Position numbers and translations under genes: made by a program
The notes under the pieces: model-generated
Databases searched by the model: none
Seen by the model: the letters and a program-made list of their open reading frames with translations, nothing else
Told to the model about the DNA's origin: nothing
NCBI GenBank assembly: GCA_029262895.1
Contig: JAJCYM010000089.1
Location: 62,001 to 126,000, forward strand
DNA: 64,000 bases
Source of the DNA: Roseivirga sp.
Lineage (GTDB): Bacteria > Bacteroidota > Bacteroidia > Cytophagales > Cyclobacteriaceae
Reading direction: 5' to 3'
Shown: one piece after another, positions 9,269-37,967 of the stretch
Numbering within the stretch: position 1 is the first letter of the stretch
Layout: every line of letters starts with the position of its first letter

Positions 9269-11845
9269 TTACTCGTACCGCAAACTCTTCACCGGATTGG
9301 TATAGACCGCTTTTACAGAATGGTAGCTAACAGTCAGAATCGTTATTCCTAAAGAGGCCATAGCAGCAACCGCAAATACGCTAACTCCAATCTCTACTCG
9401 ATACTCAAAAGCATTTAACCAATCATCCATAAAAAAGTATCCTATGGGTGCAGCAAGAACAAACCCAATACCCACAAGCACCAGGAATCCCTTAGACATC
9501 AAAATCAATAGGTTAAACAGGTTTGCACCGAGTACCTTTCGAATTCCTATTTCCTTAATACGCTGTTCAGCAGCAAAGCTCGCCAAGCCAAACAAACCCA
9601 GAAGGGATATAAAGACCGCAACAACTGAAAAGTAGTCGGCCAACTTCCCAATTGTATTCTCACTTTTGTACAGGTCATCATAACTTTCATTCAGAAATGA
9701 ATAGGTGAATGGGTAGTCAGGGTTTATCTCTTTCACTTTTGACTCCAGATAGGCCAAGTTCTCAGCGGTTGAACCTGTTGACATTTTGGCAAAGACATAA
9801 GCGCTTAATTCCGACCTCAAACTAATCACCATTGGTTCTATTCCTTCGTGAAGGGAGCGGAAATGAAAGTCTTTCACAACGCCAATTACCTTTCCTGTAC
9901 GACCCCAAAAAGTTATAGGGTGATTGAGAGGATCCTCCACATTCATTTCCCGTGCTGTTTGCTCATTGATAATTACATGGAGTGAATCGCTCTTAAGATT
10001 GGGATCAAACGAACGCCCCTCTATTATTTCCATATTCAGTGTTTCTACATAATCGTATCCGACCTGAAGTATATAAAAGAGGCTTGCCAATTCACTTGAT
10101 TTACCTTCCCAGCGAAAGCCTCCCCCTGTTGAGGCATTAATTGAAATTGGAGCATCACTACCAATACTTGCATTCGAAAAATTAGGGTTAGCAAGAATCT
10201 GAGATATCAGGATTTCCTGCCTTTCTTTCTTCTCTAGTTCACCTTCAAGTGGAATGTAAACCACATTTTCCTTTTCATAACCCAGGTTCTTGTTCTTAAT
10301 AAAATTCATTTGCCGGTGAATCACCAGCGTGGAAATAATTAAAACGGTAGACACAAGAAATTGAAAAACGACAAGCCCCTTTCGAATTCCATTTGACCAA
10401 CCGGATGTCCTGAAGCCACCTTTCAGTACTTTAATTGGAGTAAAAGCAGATAGAATAAAAGCAGGATATACTCCAGCCAATATGCCTACAGATAGGCCAA
10501 GCGCTGCAAGAGATAAGGCATTGTTGGCATTGAGAATGGAAAATTGTAATTCTCGCCCGATCAGTCCATTGATCATGGGAAGTATTAACATGATCAGCAG
10601 CCCAGCCAATAAGGCCGATGCTAGTGCCATAATTATGGATTCGCCAATAAACTGAAACACGAGTTGTGATCTGGACGATCCGACTACTTTTTTTACGCCA
10701 ACCTCTTTGGCTCGCTTCGTTGACCTTGCCGTTGAAAGGTTCATGAAATTGATACAGGCAATGAATAAAATAAAACCTGACACCGCCATAAAAAGCTTGA
10801 CATAGCTGATACGTCCACCAGCCTGAACCCCATTCTCGAAATTGGCAAAGAGATAAGTGTCTCCAAATGGCTGTAGAAAAAGAGTGATTGATGAATCGTC
10901 ATTCTTTATTTCCAAATAGTTCTTAATCTTTGCATTGAATCGATTCAAATCAACTCCAGACTTGAGTTTAATGATGTTTTTTACCACATTATTTCCCCAT
11001 TCCTGAACCCATTGATTCCGCTTTGACCAAGGCTCAGAGGGCATAACAAAGTCGAAACTTACCGTTGAATTGCTTGAGATGTCCTTAAAAATTCCACCGA
11101 TCTTATGCTCTCCCCATTCATTAATGCTCAGTGTTTTATTAAGCGCCTTGCCATCCCCAAAAAGTCGATTTTCAAGGCTCTGGGATATGTAAACAACGCT
11201 GGGTTCGGTTAACGAACTCTCCAAATTCCCTTCATTAAATTCCACGGTGAAAACCTGAAAAAAGTCCTCGCTTGCTACTATTCCCTTTTCCTTAAAACTC
11301 TCGTTACCTACTTTAAAAAGCCTCTCCTGTCCAGGCGAATACTGAGCTATATATTCTATTTCGGGCATCTCTGACTTTAGCGCGTCCTTTAATGGACCAG
11401 GGTTGTTGCTGGTAGTGAATATTGAGGTCCCATGATCCTGATTTTCCATCACCTGGAAAATTCGATCCATATCGCGATGAAACTTATTGACGGATTTTTC
11501 TCCATCAACATAGAACATTAATAATGCGCTTGCAGTGATACCAACAGTGAGTCCCATGACATTCAGGAGACTGTAACCTTTCTCTTTCCAGAAAATTCTT
11601 AGGGCTGTTTTGATTATGTTTCTGACCATATCGATACTGTTTGATTTCCGACTTATCCAATTGCGCTTTAATAGCGCGATTCGAAACAAAAGGATAGCAT
11701 CCAATAGGTAAAGCAGGTTGGCATATTTTGCCCCTTTCTTCTCGAAGTTGTGGGCATAATGTTCGTCCAGATCACCTTTGATATCCTCTTGAAAATCAGG
11801 ATGGCAATAGAATGTCAAAAGTCGCTCTCCGATACGTTTTAGCAT
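9269..11845 (-). CDS. Orphan ABC permease (MacB/FtsX type) with permease-prefix domain
   Basis: 858 residues. The architecture found in most of this cluster is: a cytoplasmic prefix (LLTFYCHPDFQEDIKGDL, ~9-26) with a following helix; a first membrane helix (~90-110); a large periplasmic MacB-like domain; FtsX membrane domain 1 (~350-450) with the cytoplasmic loop RAKEVGVKKVVG; a second periplasmic domain; and FtsX domain 2 at the C-terminus with RIKEIGIRKVLGA, ending NPVKSLRYE. Met73 (ATG at 11629) is where unprefixed relatives start. It stands alone, downstream of a fold-back repeat and of a 17-base motif shared with a PadR promoter. Its closest relative here is the gene at 12220. No ATPase gene is nearby, so substrate and energiser are unknown. 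Confidence 0.88.
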   Translation of the reverse strand: MLKRIGERLLTFYCHPDFQEDIKGDLDEHYAHNFEKKGAKYANLLYLLDAILLFRIALLKRNWISRKSNSIDMVRNIIKTALRIFWKEKGYSLLNVMGLTVGITASALLMFYVDGEKSVNKFHRDMDRIFQVMENQDHGTSIFTTSNNPGPLKDALKSEMPEIEYIAQYSPGQERLFKVGNESFKEKGIVASEDFFQVFTVEFNEGNLESSLTEPSVVYISQSLENRLFGDGKALNKTLSINEWGEHKIGGIFKDISSNSTVSFDFVMPSEPWSKRNQWVQEWGNNVVKNIIKLKSGVDLNRFNAKIKNYLEIKNDDSSITLFLQPFGDTYLFANFENGVQAGGRISYVKLFMAVSGFILFIACINFMNLSTARSTKRAKEVGVKKVVGSSRSQLVFQFIGESIIMALASALLAGLLIMLILPMINGLIGRELQFSILNANNALSLAALGLSVGILAGVYPAFILSAFTPIKVLKGGFRTSGWSNGIRKGLVVFQFLVSTVLIISTLVIHRQMNFIKNKNLGYEKENVVYIPLEGELEKKERQEILISQILANPNFSNASIGSDAPISINASTGGGFRWEGKSSELASLFYILQVGYDYVETLNMEIIEGRSFDPNLKSDSLHVIINEQTAREMNVEDPLNHPITFWGRTGKVIGVVKDFHFRSLHEGIEPMVISLRSELSAYVFAKMSTGSTAENLAYLESKVKEINPDYPFTYSFLNESYDDLYKSENTIGKLADYFSVVAVFISLLGLFGLASFAAEQRIKEIGIRKVLGANLFNLLILMSKGFLVLVGIGFVLAAPIGYFFMDDWLNAFEYRVEIGVSVFAVAAMASLGITILTVSYHSVKAVYTNPVKSLRYE

Positions 11846-11872
11846 ATTTTGAACTCAAAAATCGCCTACCTA

Positions 11873-12031
11873 ATACCAAATCAAGTATAATATGACCCAT
11901 ATAAATCATTTCTTGCCGCTTGCTCTTCGTTGAGAAAATCAGCCATAGCGATGCTATGCCCTCATTTCTCGCCTTAATCAAACGATAATAATCTAATTTC
12001 TATTAAGGCCATCTCATAATTGAATTGGTAT
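11873..12031. repeat. 159-bp fold-back repeat, copy 1
   Basis: It begins ATACCAAATCAA and ends TTGAATTGGTAT, near-perfect 12-bp inverted ends. An internal palindrome CATAGCGATGCTATG lies near the middle. It is the same length as, and about 89% identical (17 differences counted by eye) to, the copy at 14709-14867. It has no coding capacity, and its size and inverted ends suit a MITE-like non-autonomous element or structured intergenic repeat. It separates the permease start (11845) from a putative operator at 12123. Confidence 0.8.
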
Positions 12032-12122
12032 AATGTATTTCCAAAGGTCAACTTTCATTATCGCGTTATTTTATGAGATTCTGTTCCCAATTTTTGTTTG
12101 ACCTGACCTTTGTTTTATTTAA

Positions 12123-12139
12123 TTCCTAAATGTAGTTTT
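12123..12139 (-). promoter_or_regulatory. Putative PadR-type operator/promoter motif
   Basis: The 17-mer TTCCTAAATGTAGTTTT occurs here and, identically, at 21691-21707 in front of a padR gene. Read on the minus strand it contains TACATTTA, close to the TAnnTTTG -7 box. It lies 278 bp upstream of the permease beginning at 11845, with the fold-back repeat in between. That it binds PadR is inference from the shared sequence. Confidence 0.4.
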
Positions 12140-12219
12140 TTTAATTAGGATTACAAACAAATTCCCGATCAGCGGTTATCAGTCAAATCGATACCAACCG
12201 GCTATGTGTGCTTGCGGAC

Positions 12220-14577
12220 TTACTCGTACCGCAAACTCTTCACCGGGTTTGCCAAGGCAGCTCTGATTGAATGATAGCTCACAGTCATCAATGCGATTAA
12301 CACTGCCGCTCCTCCAGCCATTAAGAAAACGGTAACACCTACCGCGACTTTATATTCAAAGGCAGTCAACCAATCTGTCATCACAAAGTAGGCGGCAGGT
12401 ATGGCCAGACCAAAGCCTACAAGTACCAGAAGCAGAAAATTTTTGGCCAAAAGCATCACAAGGTTAGCTAGTCCAGCCCCCAATACTTTTCGTATGCCTA
12501 TCTCTTTGATGCGTTGTTCGGCAGCAAATGATGCCAAACCAAAGAGACCAAGCAACGAAATAAAAATGGCTATGCCAGCAAAGTAATTCGCCAGCGTTCC
12601 TACATTGGTTTCGCGCTCATAAAGCGCTGCATAGGAATCGTCAAGAAACCCATATTCAAAAGGATAACTCGGATTAAACTCCTTGAAATTTTCCTCAACA
12701 TAGGCCACTGTTTCTTCAACGTTCAGCCCATCCACCTTCATAATAAGGTGGTTAATGCTTTCAGGCCTTCTGGAAATTACCAGAGGTTCAATTTTGGAAT
12801 GCAATGAAGAAAAATGAAAGTTCTTAACAATGCCGACAACCTTTCCAGTTCGTCCCCAAAAGGTCACCGGATAGTCAACTATCTGTTCCAAATCCATACT
12901 TTCGGCAGTGGCCTGGTTGATAACAACGCTCGCTGAATCACTCAGTAATTTTTTATCAAAAGCCCTTCCATCAGCCATCTCCATGCTGAAGGTTTCAAAA
13001 AAGTTGTCATCGACTAGCAGTACCTGAAACAAGCTCGTATTCTCGGGATCTTTACCATCCCATCGAAATCCTCCTGAGGTTGAGCTTCCCATATAAATGG
13101 GGAGTACGCTAGCTCCTGTAATGTTTGTGATGCTCGGGTTTTCAAGCATTTTAGCCTTAAATAGGTCACTCTTTTCCTTCAACTCTCCTTCAAGAGGTAT
13201 ATGAATCAGGTTGTCCTTGTTATACCCAAGATTCTTGTTTTTTACATAGCTTATTTGATCATGCACCACAAGGGTACCCATAATCAAAAAGGTAGAAATA
13301 AGGAACTGGAAGACCACCAGCCCTTTCCTAATACCATTGCTCCAACCGGACGATCTAAAACTCCCTTTTAGCACCTTCACAGGAGCAAAAGAAGATAAGA
13401 AGATAGACGGATAGCTGCCTGCCAACAGTCCTACAATAAGCGCTATTCCTATTAGCATCCCTGATTGGGATGCATTCAACAAGGAAAATTCCATTGCCTT
13501 ATTTGTGAACCCATTAAGACCTGGCAATGCAACCATAATCAGCAAACCAGCCAGTAAGGCTGATATAATTGCCATCAAAAGAGATTCGGCCATAAACTGA
13601 GTAATCAAATAGCTGCGAGTTGAGCCCAACACCTTCTTCACACCTACTTCTTTAGCCCTCTTGGAAGAACGGGCCGTAGCCAGATTCATAAAGTTTATGC
13701 AGGCGATAATTAAGATAAAGGCGGCTACTATAGAAAATAATTTGACGTAAACGATTCGCCCACCTGACTGTTTGCCATCTTTAAAACCACCCTTTAAGTA
13801 GACATCCCCTATCGGATGAATAAATAAATCGATCACTGATCCTTCATTCTTCGTTTTTACATAGTCTTCGATCTTTGCGGAGAAGGCATCTTTATCAACT
13901 CCCTGGTGCAAGCTTAAAAAGTGTCTGATTCCATTGTTTCCCCAATCTTCCAACCAACTGTTCTCATCCCACCATCTCTGATTTGGAAGAACGAAATCGA
14001 ATTGGAGCGTAGAATTAGCCGGTGTCTCTCTAAACACCCCTCCTACTTTGTAATCTCCCCAACCATTGACCTCAAATGTTTGCCCGATTGCCGATTGATC
14101 CCCGAACATCTTTTTTGCCAGAGTTTCCGAAAGATAACCGACATCTGGCGCCTCCATAGATCCCTCCACGCTCCCTTCAATCATAGGAAATGAGAACATA
14201 TGAAAAAAGTCAGCACTAGCCACACGACCGGTTTCCTTGAATGTCTTTTCTCCCACTATGAACAACTTTTCTTCCTCCCAAGACAGCTGTACCATATGCT
14301 CAACTTCAGGCATTTCCTCCTTAAAAGCGTCCATTAGTGGCCCTGGGTTGGCGGTTGTGGTGAATACGGTTCCGGTAGTATAATTCTGATGCTCCATCAC
14401 CTGGTAAATTCTCTCCTGATTCTTATGGAATTTATTTACACTGTATTCATCCTCTATATATAGATAAAGCAGGAGGCTTGCACATATGCCAACGGTAAGA
14501 CCAAGAACATTCAGAAGACTGTACCCCTTTTCTTTCCAGAAGACCCTTAGGGCGATTTTAACTACATTTTTGAGCAT
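12220..14577 (-). CDS. Orphan ABC permease (MacB/FtsX type), no prefix domain
   Basis: 785 residues. This member starts directly at MLKNVVKIALRVFWKEKGYSLLN, equivalent to residue 73 of the prefixed neighbours, so it shows the ancestral unprefixed form. The periplasmic domain has the NPGPLMDAF and VASADFFHMFSFP blocks, FtsX domain 1 has RAKEVGVKKVLGS, and domain 2 has RIKEIGIRKVLGA; the C-terminus is NPVKSLRYE. It is clearly most similar to the gene at 9269, and both have a copy of the same 159-bp repeat upstream, suggesting a tandem duplication that included flanking DNA. No PadR gene is linked. Confidence 0.87.
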   Translation of the reverse strand: MLKNVVKIALRVFWKEKGYSLLNVLGLTVGICASLLLYLYIEDEYSVNKFHKNQERIYQVMEHQNYTTGTVFTTTANPGPLMDAFKEEMPEVEHMVQLSWEEEKLFIVGEKTFKETGRVASADFFHMFSFPMIEGSVEGSMEAPDVGYLSETLAKKMFGDQSAIGQTFEVNGWGDYKVGGVFRETPANSTLQFDFVLPNQRWWDENSWLEDWGNNGIRHFLSLHQGVDKDAFSAKIEDYVKTKNEGSVIDLFIHPIGDVYLKGGFKDGKQSGGRIVYVKLFSIVAAFILIIACINFMNLATARSSKRAKEVGVKKVLGSTRSYLITQFMAESLLMAIISALLAGLLIMVALPGLNGFTNKAMEFSLLNASQSGMLIGIALIVGLLAGSYPSIFLSSFAPVKVLKGSFRSSGWSNGIRKGLVVFQFLISTFLIMGTLVVHDQISYVKNKNLGYNKDNLIHIPLEGELKEKSDLFKAKMLENPSITNITGASVLPIYMGSSTSGGFRWDGKDPENTSLFQVLLVDDNFFETFSMEMADGRAFDKKLLSDSASVVINQATAESMDLEQIVDYPVTFWGRTGKVVGIVKNFHFSSLHSKIEPLVISRRPESINHLIMKVDGLNVEETVAYVEENFKEFNPSYPFEYGFLDDSYAALYERETNVGTLANYFAGIAIFISLLGLFGLASFAAEQRIKEIGIRKVLGAGLANLVMLLAKNFLLLVLVGFGLAIPAAYFVMTDWLTAFEYKVAVGVTVFLMAGGAAVLIALMTVSYHSIRAALANPVKSLRYE

Positions 14578-14708
14578 GGCGATTTTGGTTTTTGACTGAT
14601 TACCATAGTTCTGACCAATTTAAACTTGTGATTTATGGCAATTGGTTATGCTTTGGAGACGACCGTTCTCCAAGATCATTACTTCCCAAAATTGGCTTCG
14701 TTACTTTA

Positions 14709-14867
14709 ATACCAAATCAACTATAACATGACGCATACAAATCATTTCTTACCGCTTGCTCTTCGTTGAAAAAATTGGCCATAGCGATGCTATGCCCTTA
14801 TTTTTCGCCTTAATCAAGCGATCATAATTTAATTTCTATTCACGCCATTTTATAATTGAATTGGTAT
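14709..14867. repeat. 159-bp fold-back repeat, copy 2
   Basis: Same inverted ends (ATACCAAATCAA / TTGAATTGGTAT) and internal palindrome as the copy at 11873. It sits 131 bp upstream of the start of the permease at 14577, the same relative position (upstream of a permease start) as copy 1. The rest of the 421-bp gap 14578-14998 shows nothing else I can name. Confidence 0.8.
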
Positions 14868-14998
14868 AACACCCATAAACTCATCACTGCGAGCATGCAT
14901 TTTATCCCTTAACCAGGATTAAAAATGATATCGCGTGCCTTTCTCAGGATATTCGGATGTTAGTGAAATGAAGAAGTGAGTTGAGGCAGTAATTTGTT

Positions 14999-15892
14999 TC
15001 ACAACACTGACGGTGGATCGTCAAATACAGCTTCAATCATTTTTTTAATGTTGCCGGAGTAACTTCTGGCAACAGGTACTATTTTAGTAGTACCCAGTAG
15101 ATGAAGCTTATATCCTTGTGAGTTACCTTCCAGGTAGCTCACTTTTTTAATGTTCACAATATAGGTTCGATGGCATCGCTGTAGAATTGGAAATCGACTG
15201 ACCTGCTCTTCAATATTGGAGATCTTGTTTCTTAGCAACGTCTTTTTCTCAGTCTCTCCCTCAGTATAGAAAATCTCTATATAGTTTCCAGCCGCTTCAA
15301 TGCAGGAGATATACCTATGATCAAGCTTGATTTGTTCACCTTTATTTGTGGAAGTGAGCACGACAAATTCGTCCCATTCCTTTAAGGAAGATGATTTGAG
15401 TATCTGGTTTAGGTGGTCTACTTCCTGTAGGTTTCTTTTGTATAAGTAGATCTGTTTGAAAAAGATAACGCCAATTCCTGGTCCCACGGCTATAATGAAG
15501 GTGAGCAACTGCACTCGCCAAAATGTTACCCATTCAAAGTCAAATTCATAGAAGAAGCCTGAATAGAAATAGTTGAGGGTAGCAATTGAAAAAATCATCC
15601 AGCCAACCCAAATCAACTCCTTATAAACCTTCCATTCGGCATCGGCAAATAGCTTTGGGAATATGATAGGTAAGAGCACCATATTAAAGGCACTGGAAAG
15701 AAAAGTTACCCCACCAAAGCCCAGTGCTACATAATCACGAATGTTTCGAGGTTGTGCATAAATCCCGAATGGCTTGAAAATGAAGCAAAAGGCTGAAATA
15801 AAAATAGAAATGACTATGACCAACTGCCAAGCCTGTCGGGTGTTGGCGTAAAATGGGTAAGGTTGATTTAAAAAATGGCCGATCTTTCTCAT
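14999..15892 (-). CDS. Membrane-anchored LytTR-family transcriptional regulator
   Basis: 297 residues from the ATG at 15892 (a TTG nine codons upstream is less likely). Four predicted membrane helices occupy about 15-160, with no receiver domain. A LytTR DNA-binding domain covers ~195-290, recognised by RYISCIEAAGNYIEIFY, ILQRCHRTYIVNIKKVSYLEG and the terminal VPVARSYSGNIKKMI. LytTR proteins bind DNA through a beta-rich fold. Members with an N-terminal membrane domain act as one-component regulators that may be controlled by a membrane partner or signal. It lies in the middle of the permease array and may regulate part of it. No histidine kinase is adjacent. Confidence 0.87.
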   Translation of the reverse strand: MRKIGHFLNQPYPFYANTRQAWQLVIVISIFISAFCFIFKPFGIYAQPRNIRDYVALGFGGVTFLSSAFNMVLLPIIFPKLFADAEWKVYKELIWVGWMIFSIATLNYFYSGFFYEFDFEWVTFWRVQLLTFIIAVGPGIGVIFFKQIYLYKRNLQEVDHLNQILKSSSLKEWDEFVVLTSTNKGEQIKLDHRYISCIEAAGNYIEIFYTEGETEKKTLLRNKISNIEEQVSRFPILQRCHRTYIVNIKKVSYLEGNSQGYKLHLLGTTKIVPVARSYSGNIKKMIEAVFDDPPSVL

Positions 15893-15957
15893 ATTCGAAA
15901 AGATCAGGGAAATTAACAAAAAGCAGCGACCTTCTTTTTAGCCATCAGGAGACCTCT

Positions 15958-15990
15958 AGTCATTGGGTGACTTGAAGTCACCCAATGACT
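15958..15990. repeat. Perfect 16-bp-arm hairpin, copy 1
   Basis: AGTCATTGGGTGACTT is followed, after a single G, by its exact reverse complement. It lies 22 bases beyond the stop of the minus-strand permease at 16012, before the LytTR gene. A related copy is at 38328-38360, also just after a minus-strand stop codon. It probably acts as a transcript-end stem-loop, although there is no T-run. Confidence 0.75.
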
Positions 15991-16011
15991 TAGGAGATTC
16001 GCGCTTATTTC

Positions 16012-21301: not shown

Positions 21302-21633
21302 AATTTGAACTCAAAGGCCACGTCCGGAATCTGATTCCAAAGCTCAACTCTAGATTGCATGTTATAATCAAGCGCCTTTTTGCCCAAAGCAGTAATTTTG
21401 AAGTACCTCTTCCTCTTGCCTCCTCGCATTTTGGTAGACTCTCCGAATTCGGAATTCAAAAACCCTTTAGATTCCATTCTTCGCAAAGCAGACTGCAAAG
21501 CACCAACACTAACCTTTCGGTTTTGTCGCTTTGCAATTTCCTCTTTTATGGCCACACCATAGGCTTCACCATAAAGCACGCCAACAGTCAACAGCACGAT
21601 CTCCTCAAATTCACCAAGCTGGTATTTTTTCAT
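21295..21633 (-). CDS. PadR family transcriptional regulator
   Basis: 112 residues from ATG 21633; a TTG two codons upstream is possible but unnecessary. A winged-helix PadR domain fills the protein: LGEFEEIVLLTVGVLYGEAYGVAIKEEI, then VGALQSALRRMESKGFL (recognition helix region) and the wing GKRKRYFKITALGKKAL. It is the short PadR form without a large C-terminal domain. PadR proteins are usually repressors of adjacent transporter genes. It overlaps the downstream permease by 7 bases, and a TACATTTG -7 box lies 20 bases upstream of its start, within sequence repeated nearby, consistent with autoregulation. Confidence 0.9.
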   Translation of the reverse strand: MKKYQLGEFEEIVLLTVGVLYGEAYGVAIKEEIAKRQNRKVSVGALQSALRRMESKGFLNSEFGESTKMRGGKRKRYFKITALGKKALDYNMQSRVELWNQIPDVAFEFKLC

Positions 21634-21652
21634 CTTCAAGCAATTTAATTCT

Positions 21653-21707
21653 CAAATGTAGTTTTTTAATACGGAAGAAAAAACTAAAAGTTCCTAAATG
21701 TAGTTTT
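21653..21707 (-). promoter_or_regulatory. PadR-operon promoter with repeated AAATGTAGTTTT motif
   Basis: On the minus strand, TACATTTG (+ coordinates 21653-21660) matches the Bacteroidota -7 consensus. Its complement is part of AAATGTAGTTTTTT. A second copy, TTCCTAAATGTAGTTTT, is at 21691-21707; the TGTAGT cores are exactly 42 bp apart (four helical turns). The second copy is identical to 12123-12139. The overlap of motif and -7 box is what a repressor site would look like; the binding protein is inferred. Confidence 0.5.
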
Positions 21708-29752: not shown

Positions 29753-32378
29753 TCCTGAGATTGTCGATCGTATTTTTTCTTGAAACCATCAAGGTGTTTA
29801 GCCCTACAATAGCCAGCATCAATAGCCCGATTGCCAGAAATAGTAGCACATAGTTGGTCCACGGCAAGGCAGTGCGATAAGCGAAGCCTTTAAGCCAACT
29901 ATCCGTACCGTAAATGGCCAATGGTGTCGTGATTATAAATGCGACAACCACCATCACGGTGAAATCCTTAGAAAGTAGCCCAATCATTTGGGTTAGTCTG
30001 GCACCAAGAATTCTTCTTATAATCAATTCCTTGGTTCGCTGTTTTACCGTATGCGCAGACATTCCAAAAAGGCCAATCGCAGTGATCAACACGATGAGTA
30101 TTGAGAAGAAATTGATCAGTTGCTGAAACTGTAAATCGAGTTCATAATTTGCATTGATGCGCTCATCAAGGAATTGAAAATCAAAAGGGAAATTTCCATT
30201 GACCGAGCTCCACGAATCCTCGATCGAGCTGATGGCCTGCGTAAAGTCGTTGGCACTTAGTTTAACGTAAACAAAATTGGCAGCATTTTCTCGCAAGAAA
30301 ATCACCATAGGGTCAAGGCCAAAAGCCAGAGATTTGAAATGAAAGTCCTCTGCTACGCCAACCACGGTACCGTACATTCCGCCCTGGCCGTTCAGCATAA
30401 TTCGTTTTCCCACAGGATCATCAAAGCCAAGTTGACGTTTGGCCGTCTCATTGATTATAAACTGATGGGTGGTATCAAGGGGAAAAGCCCTGGAATATGA
30501 TCTTCCTTCTGAAATGTTGATGTCCAGCGTTTCAAAAAAGTCATACTGAACGGGGTAAATAGACATTTGGTGACCCTCTTCACTAGGCTCTCCTTCCAGA
30601 GGGAAAACCCGATAAGAACCATGTCTTCCTTCCATTCCTAATCTTGCAGCACCTACACTTTTGACATATGGATTTGCCAAAAGCGACCCTTTTAGATTCT
30701 CATAGTTTGCCAGAAGTTGCTCTCCGTTAAGTTCAAAAATCAACACTTGATCTTTTGAAAAACCCAGGTCCTTGCCATAGATAAACTTCAGTTGATTGAC
30801 CACAGCAAACGAACCAATCAATAACAGAAAGGACATCCCGATTTGAGCCGTAATTAGCACGCGTCTTATGCTCGATCCGGAGGTGCTTTTGATACCACTG
30901 CCCCTAAAAACCTGCGATGGCGATACCCTGGACATCACCAAAGTCAGATATCCTGAAGATGCCGGCACCAGAATCAGGAACATTATGCCCAAAAGTTTAA
31001 GCAGGTAAGCATACTCTATGAAAAGCACATCAAGCCCAAGTCCGAGTTGTGAACCCATGACCTTCAAAAAGAGGAAGGCAAACAATAGTGAAAGGATTAT
31101 CGAGATCACCACGTGGAAAATGCTTTCCAGCACGAACTGACTTCTTAAATCCACATTCCAAGCCCCCAGCACCTTTCTCACGCCCACTTCCTTAGCACGA
31201 TTCAAGGCCTTGGCCGTAGTAATATTCACATGGTTGAAAGCGCAATTCAGAAAAATAAACAGCCCTATGATTAAAAGGAGGGTCGAATAAAGTGCACTGC
31301 TGGTTTCACCCAATACTTGGTCATCATCCGGAGAATTCAGGTAAATTTTGGATAATGGTTTTAGGCTCAATCGAACATTTTCGTTCGCATCGACACGCCA
31401 GTTTTTGGTTAGTATTTCAGGGATTTGACTTTCTAACAATCTGGAATCAACACCTGGCTCAAGAAGTAGATAACTGTAAAAAGTGGACCAATTCCAGCGA
31501 TCCAAACCCCCGAAAGCCGGTGGCTGATAAGAGTTCATGGAAATCAGAAAGTCGAAGGTGAGGTGCGTATTCTTTTTTATAGGTTTTAGAACTCCAGTAA
31601 CCTTTAATCTTTTATTCTGGTCAAGTGTCAATATTTTACCCAAAGCCTGGCCTTCTCCAAAATACTTTTTTGCGGTTTCCCAGGTCAAAACGACTGAATT
31701 GGGCTCAAACAGGGCAGTTTGTTCATTGCCAACAGCTAATGCGAAATCAAAGATCTGAAGGAAGGTAGAATCCACATAGAAGATTCTGTTCTCAAAAAAA
31801 GATTGATCCTGAAACTGCATCAATTGCGGATCTCCGGTATCTCCATGTCTGATACGAGTGAAAGCCTTTACTCCGGCCAACTCACTTTGGAAGGCTGGCC
31901 CCTGTGCTGGTGCCGAACGCACGATATGGCGCGTACCTGTTGCCGAAAAAATGTCCGTTTCAATTCTGTAAATCTGATCAGCCTGTGTAAAGTTCTGATC
32001 ATAGGCATTTTCCTTCTGAATAAATAGCGCGATCAACAAACAAGCCGCAATTCCCAAGGCCAGACCTATGGTATTCAGGCCATGAAACAGCGGGCTTTTC
32101 CGAAATCCTCGTATAGCAAGATTGAGGTAGGTAAATACCAAGTAAAGCTGGCCTGTGCTGCGCTTTATGCTCCTTATAGCAAAAGGTCTTACAAAATTGA
32201 ATACATGATAATAGTATTTCAAATTAGCCCTGACTTTTGAATGTTGTTCACACTCGAGTCGGTAAAACTCATGCAAGTCTCCTTTCACTTCTTCCAGAAG
32301 TTCACTGCGACAGAACCAACTGAGAAAGCGGTCGGCCAATTTGGGTGGGGCAATATGGTTTTGTCCCTTCTTACTCAT
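29745..32378 (-). CDS. Orphan ABC permease with permease-prefix domain (second in operon)
   Basis: 877 residues. Prefix DRFLSWFCRSELLEEVKGDL. This is the only prefixed member with no Met at the fusion point; the equivalent residue is Leu80, encoded by TTG (LVFTYLNLAIRGF). Loops RAKEVGVRKVLGA and RTKELIIRRILGA. C-terminus NTIDNLRNE, with Thr in place of the usual Pro. The ATG overlaps the previous stop by eight bases (ATGAGTAA, 32371-32378). Confidence 0.87.
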   Translation of the reverse strand: MSKKGQNHIAPPKLADRFLSWFCRSELLEEVKGDLHEFYRLECEQHSKVRANLKYYYHVFNFVRPFAIRSIKRSTGQLYLVFTYLNLAIRGFRKSPLFHGLNTIGLALGIAACLLIALFIQKENAYDQNFTQADQIYRIETDIFSATGTRHIVRSAPAQGPAFQSELAGVKAFTRIRHGDTGDPQLMQFQDQSFFENRIFYVDSTFLQIFDFALAVGNEQTALFEPNSVVLTWETAKKYFGEGQALGKILTLDQNKRLKVTGVLKPIKKNTHLTFDFLISMNSYQPPAFGGLDRWNWSTFYSYLLLEPGVDSRLLESQIPEILTKNWRVDANENVRLSLKPLSKIYLNSPDDDQVLGETSSALYSTLLLIIGLFIFLNCAFNHVNITTAKALNRAKEVGVRKVLGAWNVDLRSQFVLESIFHVVISIILSLLFAFLFLKVMGSQLGLGLDVLFIEYAYLLKLLGIMFLILVPASSGYLTLVMSRVSPSQVFRGSGIKSTSGSSIRRVLITAQIGMSFLLLIGSFAVVNQLKFIYGKDLGFSKDQVLIFELNGEQLLANYENLKGSLLANPYVKSVGAARLGMEGRHGSYRVFPLEGEPSEEGHQMSIYPVQYDFFETLDINISEGRSYSRAFPLDTTHQFIINETAKRQLGFDDPVGKRIMLNGQGGMYGTVVGVAEDFHFKSLAFGLDPMVIFLRENAANFVYVKLSANDFTQAISSIEDSWSSVNGNFPFDFQFLDERINANYELDLQFQQLINFFSILIVLITAIGLFGMSAHTVKQRTKELIIRRILGARLTQMIGLLSKDFTVMVVVAFIITTPLAIYGTDSWLKGFAYRTALPWTNYVLLFLAIGLLMLAIVGLNTLMVSRKNTIDNLRNE

Positions 32379-35028
32379 ATCTCAGATTCTCCACCGGGTT
32401 GCGGTTAGCCACTTTGAGCGACTGGTAACTTACCGTTAACCAAGCCATCAATATCATGAGGAGACTGGCTCCGATAAAGAAAAATGGGCTTAGGTTAATG
32501 TGATAGGCAAATTCACTTAACCAATTGCGAGTGACGACAAATGCGAGCGGTACAGCAATCAGACAGGAAACCGCAATCAGCACCGTAAAGTTTTTGAGCA
32601 AGTTGAAATACAGCATAGCCGGGCTGGCACCAAGCACCTTTCTAATGCCCATTTCCTTTTTCCGTTGCTCCGCCATAAAGGTGGCCAGCCCGAAAAGACC
32701 GAGAATAGCAACAATAATGGCGATCAATGAAAATGCATTGACCAGCACCTTCATTCTCCCCTCATTTTTATAGAGGTCTTTATATTTTTCGCTTACCACA
32801 CTGCCAACAAAAGGCTGCCCACCGGAATGGTTCTCCCAAATGTTTTGGATAGTCATAAGGGCGGCTGCAGCGGAACCATTAAAACGAAAACTCAAGGTCC
32901 ACGGATCCTGACTTTTGTAAAAGAAAAGCGGTTTGATATTCTCCTTCATAGACTCGAAATGAAAATCCCTCACAACACCAATTACTCGAACATCAAAGGA
33001 TTGATCACCGAAAGTCATAGTCAACTTTGTATCTATAGGCTCCGCCAATTGTAATCTTTTCGCAGCCGTTTCATTAATAATGATGGTCATGGCAGAGTCC
33101 GAAGATATCTCATTATTGAAGTTGCTACCTGCCACCATTTCAAAGCCCATGGTCGGTATATAATCTTCTTCAACTGGCCATGCCTGGCTATTTATAGTTT
33201 CATCAATATTGGTGGCATCCCTCCTCTTCAAAAACATCTCTCGTCTGTTTCCACCAACCGGCACGAACCCACTCATCGTGTATGATTCGATGTTAGGGCT
33301 TTTGGTGAATTCGTTGATCAGTACATCGCGATTTGCTCCTAACCTTCCTAGGTCCATTACATCCACGGTGATCAATTGATCCTTGTCAAAACCCAGTGAT
33401 TTATCTTCTAAGAAATTAAGCTGATTGTTAACCACCAGGGTAGCAATAATAAGGATCGTTGAAATTGTGAATTGAAGCACCACAAGTCCACCTCTTAACC
33501 AGCCGCCCTTTGCTTTTAGTTGATTCTGGCTTTTTAGCGTTTTCTCAGGTTTGAAGGAAGAGAGAATAAAAGCCGGATAAATACCTGCTGTGACACCAAG
33601 TACCAGGGCTCCGCCAACCATAAGCAACCATAGCGGTGGTGTGCCACCGAATGGATTTGTAATTTCTTTTCCAGCTACAACATTGAAGTAGGGCAAAATC
33701 AACAGCACAAGGCCTGCAGCTACAACAAAGGATATAAAACTGAAGAGTGAAGACTCAAACAGAAACTGGGAAATCAATTGCTTTCTTTTGGAACCAAGCA
33801 CTTTTCTCACCCCAACTTCTTTACCGCGAATAGCGGCCCTGGCGGTACTCAGATTTACAAAATTAATGCAGGCAATTACCAATATGATCACACCAATAAG
33901 TGAGATCGTCCTCACGGTAGCAATACTTCCATTCGGTGAAATCTCACCGTCAAAATTCGACTTGAGATGAATGTCGGCTAAGGGCTGCAAATAAAATCGT
34001 GCATGGTTTCCATTGGTTTGCAAATCAGTAGGTGCTACGCCAAAATTCTCCTGTGCAATTGGAGCGATAAACGTCTCCAGCGTTTGATTCATTTTGGATT
34101 CAATCGATTCACGGCTAGCATTCTTAGCTAGCTTAAGATAGGTATAAGCGTTGATGTTCATCCAACCCATTTCAAAGCGGGAAGTCTGATAAGCCACAGA
34201 CATGATAAAGTCAAATTTGAAATGTGAATTTTCAGTCATGTCTTCGTAAATGCCTTTGATCACAAAGGCGTCACGATTGAAGGTGACAATTTTGTTGAGG
34301 GCATCCTCATTTGGGAACAAGTGCTTAGCCATTGACTCTGAAACAACTACTGTCTTGGGATCATCAAGGGCTCCTTCAGGATTACCAGCCACAAAGGGTA
34401 TGGTGAAAATTGAGAGGATTTCAGAAGTAGCATAAGTCGCGTTTTTTATCTGAACCTGCTTTTCTCCCAAATCAACAACCGAAGTAAAATTGCCGACCAT
34501 AATACGACCCGCCTCCTCAACTTCTGGGATGGTCTCTTCCAAGTGTTCAGCCATCACAATTGGCGCCCTCGGCTGAAGTATTTCTCTGTCACCAAGTTTG
34601 AAATCGGTGACTACGCGATAAATCTGATCGTAATCCTTATGATGCTTGTCAAAGGAATATTCATCCCTGACATAAAGGAAAATTAACAGGCAGCAAGTGA
34701 TCCCCACTGATAAACCAGATAGGTTGAGAAAGGAGTAAAACTTATTCCTGTTAATGACTCTTAAGGCAATGGTGAAGTAATTTTTAAACATGACCGTATT
34801 GATTAGAATTTGAGTTTTTCTTTTGAATGCAAAGGGCCTTAAAAAGTGGAGCACATGATACCAATAGGCCAGATTGCTTTTGAACTTTGATTTAGCTTCA
34901 AGTTCAAAGAGGTAATGTTCATGCAAGTCTCCTTTAACTTCCTCCAAGATTTCGCTGCGACAGAACCAACCTAAAAATCGATCTGCGAGCCGAGGTGGAT
35001 TTGTACTATGCTGGTTGATTCTAACCAT
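32371..35028 (-). CDS. Orphan ABC permease with permease-prefix domain (first in operon)
   Basis: 885 residues, the longest of the ten. Prefix DRFLGWFCRSEILEEVKGDL; internal Met80 (ATG 34791, MFKNYFT). Loops RGKEVGVRKVLGS and RKKEMGIRKVLGA; C-terminus NPVENLRYE. Its domains resemble the pair at 16012-21301 more than its own operon neighbours, although the prefix is of the operon's type. The start overlaps the end of padR by eight bases (ATGGTTAG, 35021-35028), so expression should track the repressor gene. Confidence 0.88.
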   Translation of the reverse strand: MVRINQHSTNPPRLADRFLGWFCRSEILEEVKGDLHEHYLFELEAKSKFKSNLAYWYHVLHFLRPFAFKRKTQILINTVMFKNYFTIALRVINRNKFYSFLNLSGLSVGITCCLLIFLYVRDEYSFDKHHKDYDQIYRVVTDFKLGDREILQPRAPIVMAEHLEETIPEVEEAGRIMVGNFTSVVDLGEKQVQIKNATYATSEILSIFTIPFVAGNPEGALDDPKTVVVSESMAKHLFPNEDALNKIVTFNRDAFVIKGIYEDMTENSHFKFDFIMSVAYQTSRFEMGWMNINAYTYLKLAKNASRESIESKMNQTLETFIAPIAQENFGVAPTDLQTNGNHARFYLQPLADIHLKSNFDGEISPNGSIATVRTISLIGVIILVIACINFVNLSTARAAIRGKEVGVRKVLGSKRKQLISQFLFESSLFSFISFVVAAGLVLLILPYFNVVAGKEITNPFGGTPPLWLLMVGGALVLGVTAGIYPAFILSSFKPEKTLKSQNQLKAKGGWLRGGLVVLQFTISTILIIATLVVNNQLNFLEDKSLGFDKDQLITVDVMDLGRLGANRDVLINEFTKSPNIESYTMSGFVPVGGNRREMFLKRRDATNIDETINSQAWPVEEDYIPTMGFEMVAGSNFNNEISSDSAMTIIINETAAKRLQLAEPIDTKLTMTFGDQSFDVRVIGVVRDFHFESMKENIKPLFFYKSQDPWTLSFRFNGSAAAALMTIQNIWENHSGGQPFVGSVVSEKYKDLYKNEGRMKVLVNAFSLIAIIVAILGLFGLATFMAEQRKKEMGIRKVLGASPAMLYFNLLKNFTVLIAVSCLIAVPLAFVVTRNWLSEFAYHINLSPFFFIGASLLMILMAWLTVSYQSLKVANRNPVENLRYE

Positions 35029-35362
35029 AATTAAGGCCCTTTAAGGCCAGGTCTGGGATTTGGCTGAATAATGAATTTCTCATCTCATGGTTTTTCTCCA
35101 TGGCTCGTTTCCCTGAGGCTGTGATCTGGAAAAGTCGTTTGCGCCTGCCTCCTCGCTCATGCGTGGCATCGGCCAATTCCGACTTCAAAAAACCTTTGTC
35201 TCCAAGGCGGCTCAGCGCAGAGTGCACAGCACCAATAGCCACTTTTCTTCCAGTTTGATTATGAATTTCCTGACGAATGTTCAGTCCATAGGCATCGGGG
35301 TACAACACGCCTACTATGAGTAAAACAAGCTCCTCAAATTCTCCAAGTTGAGTTCCTTTCAT
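35021..35362 (-). CDS. PadR family transcriptional regulator
   Basis: 113 residues, ATG at 35362. Winged-helix domain with LGEFEELVLLIVGVLYPDAYGLNIRQEI, IGAVHSALSRLGDKGFL and GRRKRLFQITASGKRAM. It is a clear paralogue of the PadR at 21295, and likewise overlaps the first gene of a permease chain. Expected to repress its own operon of five permeases. A TATATTTG box 38 bases upstream is flanked by TGTAG half-sites. Confidence 0.9.
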   Translation of the reverse strand: MKGTQLGEFEELVLLIVGVLYPDAYGLNIRQEIHNQTGRKVAIGAVHSALSRLGDKGFLKSELADATHERGGRRKRLFQITASGKRAMEKNHEMRNSLFSQIPDLALKGLNYG

Positions 35363-35392
35363 GGTATTAATTTTTTGATCAAATTTCGTATA

Positions 35393-35439
35393 TGTAGAAC
35401 AAATATATACAATTACTACAAATATGAAACTTGACTACA
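35393..35439 (-). promoter_or_regulatory. Promoter and candidate operator of the five-permease operon
   Basis: On the minus strand TATATTTG (+ 35400-35407) is a perfect TAnnTTTG -7 box; TTTC 18 bases upstream (+ 35426-35429) is a near match to the TTTG -33 element. The + strand shows TGTAG (35393-35397) and CTACA (35416-35420) as an inverted pair bracketing the -7 box, and another ACTACA at 35434-35439. The same TGTAG core occurs in the other PadR promoter. PadR binding is inferred. Confidence 0.5.
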
Positions 35440-35483
35440 ATACCTAACTGACGAGAGACTTTGGAAAACGTTGCATCTGAAAC

Positions 35484-35514
35484 AAAAAAAGTCACGGTTG
35501 CCCGTGACTTTTTT
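35484..35514 (-). terminator. Rho-independent terminator (bidirectional)
   Basis: The stem GTCACGG / CCGTGAC with loop TTGC is flanked by an A-run (35484-35490) and a T-run (35509-35514). It lies 17 bases beyond the true stop (35531) of the frameshifted permease on the minus strand and isolates that gene from the padR operon. Confidence 0.85.
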
Positions 35515-35530
35515 CAGAATCAAATTTATT

Positions 35531-37967
35531 CTACTCGTGCCTAAGGGCATTCGTGGGGTTGCCTCTGGAGGTCCTGATTGAAATGGCACTAATGGTGGCC
35601 AGAATCAATCCCAGAATTCCGATTGAGGTGATAAGAAATACCAATGGGTTCATGGGAGTCTGATAGGTGAAATTGCTCAACCATCCCGCAATGAAGTAAT
35701 AGGTTGAGGGAATTGCTACCAACAGTGAAAAGCACTGCGATCTTCAGGTATTTCAGGTTGAGTAGCCACAATATTTGAGACGCAGACGCCCCAAGCACTT
35801 TTCTGATACCAATCTCCTTCACACGTTTTCGAATTACAACTAAAGCCACACCAACTAACCCGGCAATGGAAAGAAAAATTGAAATAGCAGAGAAAAGTCC
35901 CACTAAATCCAAAGTTCTGGATTCCTCCTTGTAAAGGCTCTCAATTCTTCCATCAAGAAAGTAATACTCAAACGAGTTGAGCGGATCAAAGCTCTTATAA
36001 ACCTCTTGAATATGGTCGACTGTCGACTCAAGGTTTCGCCCTTGAGTCTTGATCATTAGAAAGTTGTAGTCATCTGGATAAATCTGCATTATAATCGGCT
36101 TGATTGCCTCATGCAGTGACTTGAAGTGAAAATCTTTGACCACCCCGACAATCGTCCCTGGTTTCATCCTATCATCATCGTCATAGAATATTCGTTTGCC
36201 CAAAGGCTCTTCGAGGTTGAAGTTCCTGGCAGCAGTTTCGTTAATCACATAGCTTATGCCGGCTGAATCTGTGGCGAACGACTTCTGAAAAGGCCGCCCA
36301 TCCAGCATTTCCAGGTCCAATATCTCAAACACATCATAATCAACAAGAAACTCGCCAATCAGAACACTATTAAGTTCGTCCTGATCCCAATAAGAAGGAT
36401 TATAGTTAAACTGCCCCCCGGGGATATTGGAAACTGCGGTAACTCCAATAATACCAGGGTCTGAAAGAAGTTGTGCCTTGACCGCATCCAGACGGGGTAC
36501 AATCTGATCGTCTTCCTTTATTCTTACCACCAAAAGGTTCTCCTTGTCAAAACCCAATTCCTTGTCTTTCATGTAGGTGATTTGATCCTGAATAAAGAAA
36601 CTACCACTAATCAGCAGTACCGACATAAAAAATTGAACCCCCAAAAGCATGTTTCGTGCGCCATTGCCCTTGAGCGAGTTCGGGCTCATTCCTTTCAATA
36701 TTTTTCCCGGATCAATAGAGTTCAGGTAAACGGATGGGTAAAATGCTGCTAATGCTGCTATCGCCAGTGATACACTCAAAAGCGGCCCTAATAAGCCCAA
36801 TGACAATACCATCTCCTTAGATATTTGTCCCTGAACCAGCGTATTGAACTTGGGCAGAAGCGCTAGGGAAAGTCCAATTGCCGCTATTAGAGCGATCAAC
36901 ACAAAGGCAATTGACTCAAAAAGAAATTGGTTAAATAGTTGACCCTTGAAGGCTCCGAGCGTTTTACGAACACCAATTTCCTTGAGCCTTTCAATAGATC
37001 GAGCTGTACTTAGATTGACAAAGTTGATAATAGAAATAAGGAGAATAAAGATTCCCGAAATTCCATAGATATAGATATAGGAATAATCGCTGTTTGAGTC
37101 CAACTCCCATCGAAGATGAGATTCAAGATGAATACTTTCAATAGGCTGTAGGTCAAAGCCGATCTCACCCGCTTCCATTCTGCGATACGACTCCCTCATA
37201 CCTTCGCTGTTGGCCGGAATATACTTGGTGAGCCATTGTGGTAACCGACCTTCAAGCCGGTCAACATCAACTCCAGGTGCCAATTTCAAATAGTTAAAAT
37301 GACCAAAATCTCCCCATTGAAACCAATTACCATTTGGATTGAAAGCCTTAGAAGTAATATAGGATATCAGATAGTTAAAACGAAAGTGTGAATTGACCGG
37401 TGGATCTTTCAACACTGCCACTACCTCCAATGGGCTCTCATCATTGCCGAAAGCCAAAAACTTTCCAATTGGGTCTTCGGTCCCGAAAAATCTGGTGGCC
37501 ATAGATTCGGATATTAGTACGCCACCGATCTTCTTAAGTACAGAAGCCTCCCCAGACATAAACTCAAAGGAAAAGACATCAAAAAAAGTGGTATCGACCA
37601 AATACCCTTCCGGTTCTTCAAAGACGTTGTTGTTTTCCTTATTTATAAATCTGGTAGTTGTTTTTGTAAGTCCAGGACCGTAGACCGGTGATAAACTTAC
37701 CGCAGCCTCCACCTCTGGGAAGTCGGCCTTCAGGGCTTGCGCCATAGGATGAGGAGTACGCGTTTGCGGATTATCGCTCATCCAGGCGATGCGGTAAATA
37801 TCTTCTGATCTTTCATGAAAAGAGTCGAATGAAAACTCTTGCCTGATATGTAGGTAGATCAGCGTTGAAAGCGTGATGGCCAAGGTCAATCCCACCACAT
37901 TGATCAATGAGTAAAGTGGGTTTTTAAATAAGACCCGAATGAAGATTTTGAAGTTGTTGTTGAGCAT
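35531..37967 (-). pseudogene. Orphan ABC permease without prefix, single-base frameshift near C-terminus
   Basis: The main frame from ATG 37967 reads as a normal unprefixed permease (MLNNNFKIFIRVLFKNPLYS...) through FtsX domain 1 (RLKEIGVRKTLGA) and most of domain 2 (RVKEIGIRKVLGA), then leaves the family after LKIAVLF and would stop at 35589. The correct ending (LVAIPSTYYFIAGWLSNF ... NPTNALRHE, stop 35531) continues in another frame. Removing one base from the T4 run (A4 on +, 35728-35731) restores LKIAVLSLLVAIPSTYY with the spacing of the paralogues. Either a recent mutation or a homopolymer sequencing error; the gene has its own terminator. Everything else looks intact. Confidence 0.85.

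Follow-up and report, generated by a model that had tools for sequence, protein, structure and literature searches.

What drives a large set of ABC-type permeases that have no ATPase gene beside them, and why are PadR genes placed among them? These questions are raised by a locus in a window of 64,000 nucleotides (the whole stretch of Roseivirga sp. DNA that was analysed), in which ten MacB/FtsX-type permease ORFs, each of 785-885 aa in the window ORF list, occupy positions 9269-37967 of the minus strand (Table 1). Each of them scores above cut-off for both Pfam MacB_PCD and Pfam FtsX, and their positions agree with those given by an earlier, sequence-only reading of this DNA. That reading had also reported both coupling loops in every permease, a linkage to PadR regulators and the lack of any ABC ATPase in the window, and on these points it holds: the loops are readable in 10/10 permeases, two PadR genes stand within the array, and a home-made profile of MacB/LolD/FtsE-type ATPases finds a sole match in the window, RecF, at 13 bits. 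The N-terminal prefix domain of the permeases and its match to PadR, which that reading missed, are the most informative part of the locus.

Table 1. Features of the permease arrays, listed in the direction of transcription
Feature	Position in window	Strand	Remarks
Permease 10	35589..37967	-	no prefix; frame lost after second coupling loop
Terminator-like hairpin and T run	35484..35514	-	between permease 10 and PadR-1; spotted by eye
Imperfect inverted repeat, operator-like	35388..35411	-	upstream of PadR-1; spotted by eye
PadR-1	35021..35362	-	Pfam PadR 38.8 bits; overlaps permease 9 start
Permease 9	32371..35028	-	prefix type B, ~34798-35019; first of PadR-1 array
Permease 8	29745..32378	-	prefix type B
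Permease 7	27137..29752	-	prefix type B
Permease 6	24522..27140	-	prefix type B
Permease 5	21926..24529	-	prefix type B; closes PadR-1 array
Direct repeat copy 1, operator-like	21688..21707	-	upstream of PadR-2; 14/16 matches
Direct repeat copy 2, operator-like	21646..21665	-	upstream of PadR-2; 42 nt from copy 1
PadR-2	21295..21633	-	Pfam PadR 41 bits; overlaps permease 4 start
Permease 4	18656..21301	-	prefix type A; first of PadR-2 array
Permease 3	16012..18654	-	prefix type A
LytTR protein	14999..15919	-	lies between permeases 3 and 2; LytTR DNA-binding domain at its C-terminus
Permease 2	12220..14577	-	no prefix; body 56% identity with permease 1
Permease 1	9269..11845	-	prefix type A, 62-65% to permeases 3 and 4

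The prefix is NCBIfam perm_prefix_2 (NF038404, hereafter prefix_2; cut-off 35 bits), which matches the N-terminus of eight of the ten window permeases at 43.5-73.2 bits and is missing from the other two. The last transmembrane segment of permease 10 lies in another frame (ORF 35531-35722) than the preceding part of the gene, which points to either a pseudogene or an assembly error. The body of permease 1 is nearest to that of prefix-less permease 2 despite its type A prefix, and directly upstream of it stands neither a PadR gene nor a prefix permease. PadR-2 likely starts at the ATG at 21633, the ORF as listed beginning at 21639. The window LytTR protein has no further relative among the array loci compared.

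By predicted fold and coupling loops the permeases belong with the Type VII (MacB/LolCDE/FtsX) transporters. A predicted full-length model (pLDDT 88.9) has as its nearest folds the E. coli YbbAP chain and then MacB, and its best Foldseek match, 9ge6_A (YbbAP; E 5.1e-22, TM 0.45 by query, 876 alignment columns), likewise combines a single, pseudo-dimeric chain with a separate ATPase, but at 14% identity and with permease and ATPase genes that are adjacent in ybbAP. The permeases would be single-chain "double" MacB/DarB-like proteins with two periplasmic domains and two coupling loops, eight long helices in each being taken as membrane-spanning. In rank among all ten-column windows the conserved loops reach 0.945-0.997, whether the permeases are ATPase-adjacent, prefixed or plain orphans, and the signature of both loops is kept in 144/154 permeases of the genome.

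Where, then, is the motor? At E<=1e-20 there are 25 LolD-like matches in the genome, none of them on the window's contig. An ATPase on another contig (G000:C62:87203-87913, here the C62 ATPase) lies in an operon of HlyD adaptor, ATPase and TolC-type channel that holds no permease, and its best profile is DarD (283 bits, cut-off 375). In relatives, where 20 neighbourhoods out of 29 loci were compared, an ATPase of the C62 type is followed by one or more permeases of the window family in 13/20; in the other 7/20 it has no permease neighbour, as in the Roseivirga genome, which counts against the link. Both in G108 (L196) and in Runella defluvii (L251) ATPase, permease, PadR and prefix permease(s) follow each other on one strand. 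Additionally, in a 59-genome sample in which kinship was ignored, a C62 ATPase orthologue of >=70% identity is present in 13/13 other genomes with prefix_2 vs 3/45 without it (7/45 at >=65% identity). The association of the permeases with this ATPase is suggested only by gene linkage in relatives.

The sequence-only reading had left a choice between one shared ATPase encoded elsewhere and working without any. The genome search that it proposed does find LolD/MacB-like ATPases without a permease of their own, which together with the linkage in relatives favours a shared ATPase; the same linkage speaks against ATPase-free working, even though an ATPase linked in relatives, found here to the letter, had been named as the observation that would overturn that reading. 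Simple loss of the ATPase from the genome was rejected, because permease-less ATPases are present. The candidate motor operon resembles MacAB-TolC in its adaptor, TolC-type channel and MacB-like ATPase, as do the permeases in their fold, but here the ATPase is unfused, the permease is duplicated and there are many permeases per candidate motor. It also resembles DarBCD (NF038008, NF038007), with a single-chain permease model of 777 positions and a separate DarD-type ATPase; the Roseivirga permeases, however, lie outside the ATPase operon and fall short of DarB membership (NF038008; 90.3-183.3 bits vs a cut-off of 700).

The locus is one of many in a 102-contig draft genome that is 96% complete. 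It holds 83 prefix_2 matches, of which 80 exceed the cut-off, and at least 86 permease matches without prefix_2; three of the 83 and four of the 86 are fragments situated at a contig end or close to one. The permease total is well over a hundred, about half of them with a prefix, and is a lower bound because PF12704 was scored for 150/363 candidates. A PadR gene lies directly upstream of a permease with an N-terminal extension in 61/69 PadR matches, 56 of them preceding prefix_2 permeases and five preceding permeases with another extension, which the tree of permeases classes as "non"; it lies directly upstream of none of the 82 listed permeases without an extension, a count that omits four MacB/LolC-like permeases of 411-466 aa. 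Seen from the permeases, 56 of the 83 prefix_2 matches have a PadR gene directly upstream, 23 stand behind another prefix permease and four have neither; these four, window permease 1 among them, count against a signalling role for the prefix.

Prefixes are alike within arrays and bodies are not. Among 80 prefix permeases of the genome (unique, >=700 aa), identity of the prefix (~75 residues) is 0.640 within one-PadR arrays vs 0.312 between arrays, the corresponding values for the body being 0.371 and 0.317, and 0/2000 label shuffles reach the within-array prefix likeness. Two further genome sets, slightly overlapping, give a matching pattern. The set from relatives comprises 37 permeases in 17 runs once a double (L196 = L220) is removed; it holds the near-identical genomes G119 and G133, and the pattern stays without G133 and the double. 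In one collection of permeases, those of <600 aa or with <500 nt upstream were left out. The named-genome set of 121 prefix permeases shares nine with the earlier sets, and the pattern stays without them. PadR distance correlates with prefix distance (r 0.345 over 52 pairs; 0.533 over 70 pairs, in which the L196/L220 permease is counted twice) above its correlation with any equal-sized body block, the adjacent one included (at most 0.17 and 0.33, respectively). Taken together, these results suggest that the prefix acts as a swappable tag, one that matches the PadR of its array. Synonymous sites are also more alike in within-array prefixes (0.504) than in bodies (0.285), which points to a share of gene conversion in the homogenisation; selection by PadR is a candidate cause.

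The predicted prefix consists of three helices (13-22, 25-45 and 48-71), with a mean pLDDT of 73 when modelled alone and block means of 87-93 across residues 11-60 in the full-length model. It has no Pfam match and no significant Foldseek match, and a search by sequence found no solved-structure relative. A comparable dyad is described in the available text of PMC11237479, whose authors propose that HAAS domains pass a signal from the membrane on to PadR and thereby offer an alternative to two-component systems, PadR genes being coupled to membrane proteins with an N-terminal helical domain, FtsX/MacB_PCD fusions among them. The prefix_2 permeases share with that dyad the coupling to a standalone PadR and the three consecutive helices. 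The GxP of the kinked third HAAS helix, however, is absent from prefix_2 (third-helix consensus ..VLxFxRPFA..), and profile similarity to the prefix_1/HAAS-like N-termini that this genome also encodes is lacking (A4 and A1 vs seven such N-termini; hhalign probability 0.2-0.3%, with a small target alignment); arrays in which one PadR heads several permeases with like prefixes were not found in the available text of that paper. A relation of prefix_2 to HAAS/DUF1700 is unsupported by profile comparison, Pfam or fold search.

Repeats before the PadR genes are candidate, operator-like binding sites. Direct repeats lie upstream of 24/52 PadR genes of the genome (2% in shuffles, 0/74 controls) and emerged only from comparing each upstream region with itself; shared inverted 4- to 6-mers in the PadR upstream regions exceed the best of ten shuffles by one at most. 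None of the 17 distinct regions before PadR genes in relatives (18 with the L196/L220 double) has such direct repeats, and inverted repeats are enriched there.

The explanation that we find modestly probable is that a MacAB/Dar-like motor is shared by many permeases, of which the prefixed ones also signal to an autorepressing PadR. The motor would be the DarD/MacB-like ATPase of the C62 operon, encoded away from the permeases, two copies of which would dock on any permease at hand by way of its two coupling loops. The cytoplasmic N-terminal prefix may contact the PadR repressor whose gene heads the array, and the state of the permease, ligand-bound or pumping, would alter PadR repression of its own operon; as ligands we would guess envelope-active compounds. 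Prefixes would be kept alike within an array, and swapped between permease bodies, because one PadR serves several permeases. A bolder version, "one motor, many heads", to which we give tentative and less than even credence, is a modular export system that senses the envelope: a single adaptor-ATPase-channel set would drive well over a hundred interchangeable permeases, the tag routing the state of each tagged permease to one of about sixty dedicated PadRs and bodies joining an array by acquiring its tag.

Three other explanations deserve weight. The permeases may be served by several shared LolD/MacB-type ATPases, such as the LolD-like C91:7492 and the MacB-like C48:106579, and not by the C62 operon in particular; we consider this unlikely, and it is compatible with the signalling part of our explanation. 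These two permease-less ATPases count against one motor, the genome holding at least three of MacB/LolD grade besides an FtsE-like one, but it is the C62 type, the one whose linkage was looked at, that adjoins the window family in relatives, and the C91 ATPase may be the LolD that serves the detached LolC/E-like permeases (411 and 418 aa). A little less likely still is a shared ATPase with a prefix unlinked to PadR, in which PadR answers a cytoplasmic ligand and tandem gene conversion alone makes prefixes alike. PadR proteins commonly bind small ligands, and the likeness at synonymous sites fits this account. The available text on Listeria, moreover, reports that deletion of LftS, a DUF1048 (HAAS superfamily) partner, left LftR repression of lieAB unaltered and that LftS effects are, according to its authors, LftR-independent (PMC4517056), which counts against the signalling part of our explanation. 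On the other side stand the pairing of PadR with extended permeases and with none of the 82 listed plain ones, the correlation of PadR with the prefix above all body blocks, and the finding that prefix_1 and prefix_2 go with PadRs that differ in score class, as seen even on the sister bodies L093 and L120; conversion, in turn, requires prefixes that are alike to begin with.

Quite improbable, in our estimate, is that the orphan permeases are receptors only, which detect ligands in the periplasm and report to PadR by way of the prefix, with neither transport nor an ATPase. The permeases of the window have no ATPase neighbour, prefix and PadR are paired, and the HAAS-PadR proposal as published in the available text of PMC11237479 would suit such a role. 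Conservation of the coupling loops as in ATPase-adjacent members and the linkage of related bodies to an ATPase in relatives argue against it, as do the 82 listed plain permeases, which, with no extension found and no PadR directly upstream, cannot act as receptors of the prefix-PadR kind.

How does our explanation, a shared motor with signalling prefixes, stand beside known systems? In BceAB-BceRS, a Type VII ABC exporter is at once a transporter and a source of signals for its own expression, but the partner there is a histidine kinase and here a PadR repressor, and the fold match is weaker. The acidobacterial duplicated orphan permeases (ADOP, TIGR03434), which have PadR neighbours, were first named from Acidobacteria. 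The parallel with them drawn by the sequence-only reading stands for architecture and neighbours: the window permeases have the two FtsX/MacB_PCD repeats and lack an adjacent ABC ATPase, as ADOPs do, and share with them large paralogous sets and PadR upstream of many. It fails for membership, the scores of the ten permeases (229.5-300.5 bits) lying far below the cut-off of 622.3; the host is not an acidobacterium, and most carry prefix_2 and not prefix_1. The supposed confinement to Acidobacteria is contradicted by the available part of PMC11573002, in which RAST annotation labels 28 and 33 copies in two Dyadobacter genomes as acidobacterial duplicated orphan permease. Our literature search found no title or abstract describing PadR-headed permease arrays, nor, in the papers searched, the phrase "permease prefix domain"; ADOP-PadR linkage and the HAAS-PadR signalling proposal are known, and the matched tag and the detached motor were not found in those papers.

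Some bacterial genomes carry annotated orphan ABC permeases in large numbers, with no function assigned to them. The C62 operon provides a concrete candidate for their missing motor, and the array-matched prefix a sequence rule that predicts the PadR partner of each permease. If true, our explanation would reveal a kinase-free route by which a transporter reports to a repressor, and a case of permease sets that evolve through the exchange of tags while sharing one regulator.

The ten-permease array on the minus strand at 9269-37967 is borne out by its open reading frames (785-885 aa), all of which carry MacB_PCD and FtsX domains above the Pfam cut-offs. The window also holds no ABC ATPase, as the sequence-only reading had stated: our home-made MacB/LolD/FtsE-type ATPase profile matched nothing there except RecF (13 bits), and none of the 25 LolD-like matches of the genome (E <= 1e-20) lies on the window's contig. 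That reading had further taken both coupling loops to be intact in every permease. Both are legible in all ten, but in permease 10 (35531-37967; numbering follows rising coordinate) the frame is left just past the second loop and the last membrane segment lies in a different frame, which is a pseudogene or an assembly error. Eight permeases start with the NCBIfam permease prefix domain 2 (prefix_2; 43.5-73.2 bits, cut-off 35), which is absent from permeases 2 (12220) and 10 (35589). Two PadR genes and one LytTR gene lie inside the array; the latter (14999-15919), whose product carries LytTR at its C-terminus, stands before a prefix-less permease and has no relatives among the other loci compared. 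Adjoining the array on the other strand, 6168-9146 encodes a bacterial Roco-type LRR-Roc-COR protein of 992 aa.

Among the genomes sampled, the source genome (5.79 Mb, 102 contigs, 96% complete) is extreme in its number of prefix_2 domains, with 83 matches (80 above cut-off) together with 69 PadR matches (65 above cut-off). It holds at least 86 more MacB_PCD matches to permeases of the same class that lack prefix_2; the figure is a minimum, as 150 of 363 candidates were scored. The domain is present in 7 of 99 sampled genomes of the phylum, the source genome included, and in 14 of 59 of the order, with 1-28 matches each outside the source genome.

PadR genes are tied to the N-terminal extension. 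In the source genome, 56 of the 69 PadR matches precede a prefix_2 match on the same strand by 68-197 nt (measured between profile edges), and five more (on C81, C94, C52, C66 and C70) precede permeases with another N-terminal extension, which is prefix domain 1 (perm_prefix_1) above cut-off on C81, C52 and C70, the same below cut-off on C94, and unassigned on C66; the C70 gene was confirmed as a permease of the same family. Conversely, a PadR gene stands directly upstream of 4 of the 86 listed permeases without prefix_2, all four among those five, and of none of the other 82. Directly upstream of the 83 prefix_2 matches lie PadR (56), another prefix permease (23) or neither (4, permease 1 of the window among them). 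In the six remaining prefix_2 genomes from the phylum sample, read by eye from match coordinates, PadR lies within 270 nt upstream in 14 of 17 prefix matches, two are second in a run and one has none listed. A set of 69 loci from named genomes (Spirosoma, Larkinella, Runella, Emticicia, Roseivirga and others) gives 44 PadR, 73 permeases and four of neither kind directly upstream of 121 prefix permeases, and PadR upstream of 2 of 13 prefix-less ones; one of these two (L253) has a prefix match just ahead of its called start, and the other, of 899 aa (L284), has no prefix match. Eight PadR matches head no permease, and two of the four inspected precede smaller proteins (225 aa at L002, 199 aa at L008) that look by eye like HAAS domains and are probably ordinary HAAS-PadR pairs.

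The regions upstream of PadR contain operator-like repeats. In the source genome, a direct repeat (at least 14 of 16 matches) occurs within 120 nt upstream of 24 of 52 PadR genes, its second copy beginning 19-37 nt ahead of the PadR start, as compared with 2% of shuffles and 0 of 74 upstream regions of prefix-less permeases; perfect inverted 8-mers reach 21% versus 4% in shuffles. The 18 PadR upstream regions of relatives (17 distinct) show no direct repeats, and inverted repeats in 28% versus 4% in shuffles.

Operator-like repeats ahead of the two PadR genes of the array (window coordinates)
Feature	Position	Location	Basis
Direct repeat of PadR-2, operator-like	21646-21665 and 21688-21707	upstream of PadR-2	self-comparison of upstream region
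Imperfect inverted repeat, operator-like	35388-35411	upstream of PadR-1	located in sequence

Prefixes match within an array far more closely than the permease remainders (bodies) that follow them. Defining a run as prefix permeases on the same strand, less than 600 nt apart and with no PadR between, the 80 prefix permeases of the source genome fall into 58 runs. Prefix identity is 0.640 within runs versus 0.312 between, and body identity 0.371 versus 0.317; the prefix-minus-body difference was reached in 0 of 2000 permutations of the run labels. For bodies as well, likeness within runs modestly exceeds that in every shuffle. Prefix identity is 50% or more in 32 of 34 within-run pairs versus 26 of 3126 between-run pairs. 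The relatives' loci (37 distinct permeases, 17 runs) behave likewise, with 0.716 and 0.424 for prefixes and 0.396 and 0.369 for bodies (0.707, 0.418, 0.376 and 0.361 after removal of one of two near-identical genomes), as do the named-genome loci, with 0.687 and 0.497, and 0.371 and 0.362 (0.698, 0.495, 0.379 and 0.364 without nine permeases common to the earlier sets), where the between-run prefix value is raised because a prefix motif served to find the loci. In the window, the five permeases behind PadR-1 have prefixes 59-72% and bodies 26-35% identical, and permeases 4, 3 and 1 have a second prefix type in common (62-79%). The body of permease 1 is nearest to that of prefix-less permease 2 (56%), and the body of permease 9 resembles that of permease 4 (41% identity) more than that of any other permease behind PadR-1 (at most 35%). 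Likeness drops near the prefix-body border. At identical residues, third bases agree more often in within-run prefixes than in bodies (0.504 versus 0.285 in the source genome, 0.614 versus 0.381 in relatives), and therefore DNA-level copying takes part.

A FastTree phylogeny of 219 bodies, one of them entered twice, has poorly supported deep branches; on it, prefix_2 changes state 51 times, as compared with 63-82 times for shuffled labels (mean 72.7), and 60 times versus a mean of 79.7 when branches below 95 are collapsed. The 51 changes therefore indicate that the prefix was gained, lost or swapped many times. Permeases 1 and 2 are among the sister bodies (support 100) that differ in N-terminus, as are L120 (prefix_2) and L093_440 (prefix_1); the PadRs of the latter two are of different kinds, scoring 152 and 29 bits with a profile built from prefix_2-type PadRs. 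The correlation of PadR distances is stronger with prefix distances (r = 0.345 over 52 source-genome pairs, 0.533 over 70 pairs) than with those of any body block of equal size (no more than 0.17 and 0.33).

The predicted structure of permease 9 (mean pLDDT 88.9, pTM 0.82) consists of a three-helix prefix, two periplasmic domains and eight long helices taken as membrane-spanning, with a short helix at each coupling loop (402-410 and 790-798). Its best Foldseek match is to E. coli YbbAP chains (E 5.1e-22, TM 0.45), with MacB next. Modelled alone, the prefix again forms three helices (pLDDT 73), with no significant Foldseek match.

As regards the motor, we considered the eight best LolD-like matches of the source genome as MacB/LolD/FtsE-grade ATPases. 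Four of these eight lack a permease neighbour, the kind of ATPase that the sequence-only reading had proposed to look for: C62:87203-87913, C48:106579 (MacB-like), C91:7492 (LolD-like) and C91:27969 (FtsE-like). The first, with DarD as best profile (283 bits, cut-off 375), is flanked by an HlyD adaptor and an outer-membrane efflux protein. Three others (C57:63342, C48:36267 and C64:102711) adjoin more distant permeases, and C79:22002 adjoins one of the window family; this pair, the only one seen for the family in the source genome, has a same-strand gene with a PycTM (Pycsar effector) domain next to it (L061, 9481-14072). The MacB-type gene on C48 (L058, 9570-10319) has an unassigned 853-aa gene on one side and a cobalamin adenosyltransferase on the other, and LolC/E-like permeases (411 and 418 aa) lie on contigs other than that of the LolD-like gene on C91 (L056, 7468-8142).

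C62-type ATPases of relatives (61-79% identity; 20 of 29 loci inspected) have the adaptor upstream in all 20 neighbourhoods, and the next large gene is a family permease in 13 and not in 7. The order in genome G108 is adaptor, ATPase, permease, PadR and prefix permease; in Runella defluvii it is an ORF resembling by eye an adaptor end, ATPase, permease, small gene, PadR and two prefix permeases. With kinship uncorrected, a C62 orthologue at 70% identity or more occurs in all 13 other prefix_2 genomes versus 3 of 45 without prefix_2, or 7 of 45 at 65% or more. Thirteen ATPase-adjacent permeases placed on the body tree all lack a prefix and lie scattered, often adjoining prefixed permeases. In a ranking of all ten-column windows by conservation, the two coupling loops come out at 0.945-0.997, whether the permeases are ATPase-linked, prefixed or plain orphans. 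Of 154 source-genome permeases, 144 retain the E, R/K and G positions in both loops and ten do not. At seven loci (L060, L196, L199, L202-L204 and L210), a pair of ORFs of some 430-470 aa is found upstream of the adaptor and ATPase genes, in most cases on the opposite strand; judged by size, these possibly encode a sensor kinase and a regulator.

We propose the prefix as the point at which a permease signals to its array's PadR. In this regard, HAAS-PadR pairs were proposed as an alternative to two-component systems in a 2024 study that also names FtsX/MacB_PCD fusions, with one accession (PMC11237479), and the Listeria PadR repressor LltR mainly controls its own operon, encoding a DUF1700 membrane protein (PMC6624303). 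In Listeria, however, the neighbouring PadR protein LftR repressed lieAB just as before when LftS (DUF1048) was deleted, which counts against a prefix reporting to PadR; the authors term the LftS effects LftR-independent (PMC4517056). ADOP sets, their PadR linkage and the notion of a PadR-coupled cytoplasmic domain are already known. The fusion accession of the HAAS-PadR study presumably comes from Acidobacterium. In the open-licence literature searched, we found no description of an array-matched, body-swapping prefix, nor of a motor operon that stands apart here and is linked to permeases in relatives.

We infer, as steps of the proposal, that the ATPase would dock on the permeases, that prefix and PadR would bind each other and that this binding would change repression. 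In this proposal, the permeases would serve as interchangeable heads for one MacAB/Dar-like export machine, with a motor encoded once and apart from them.
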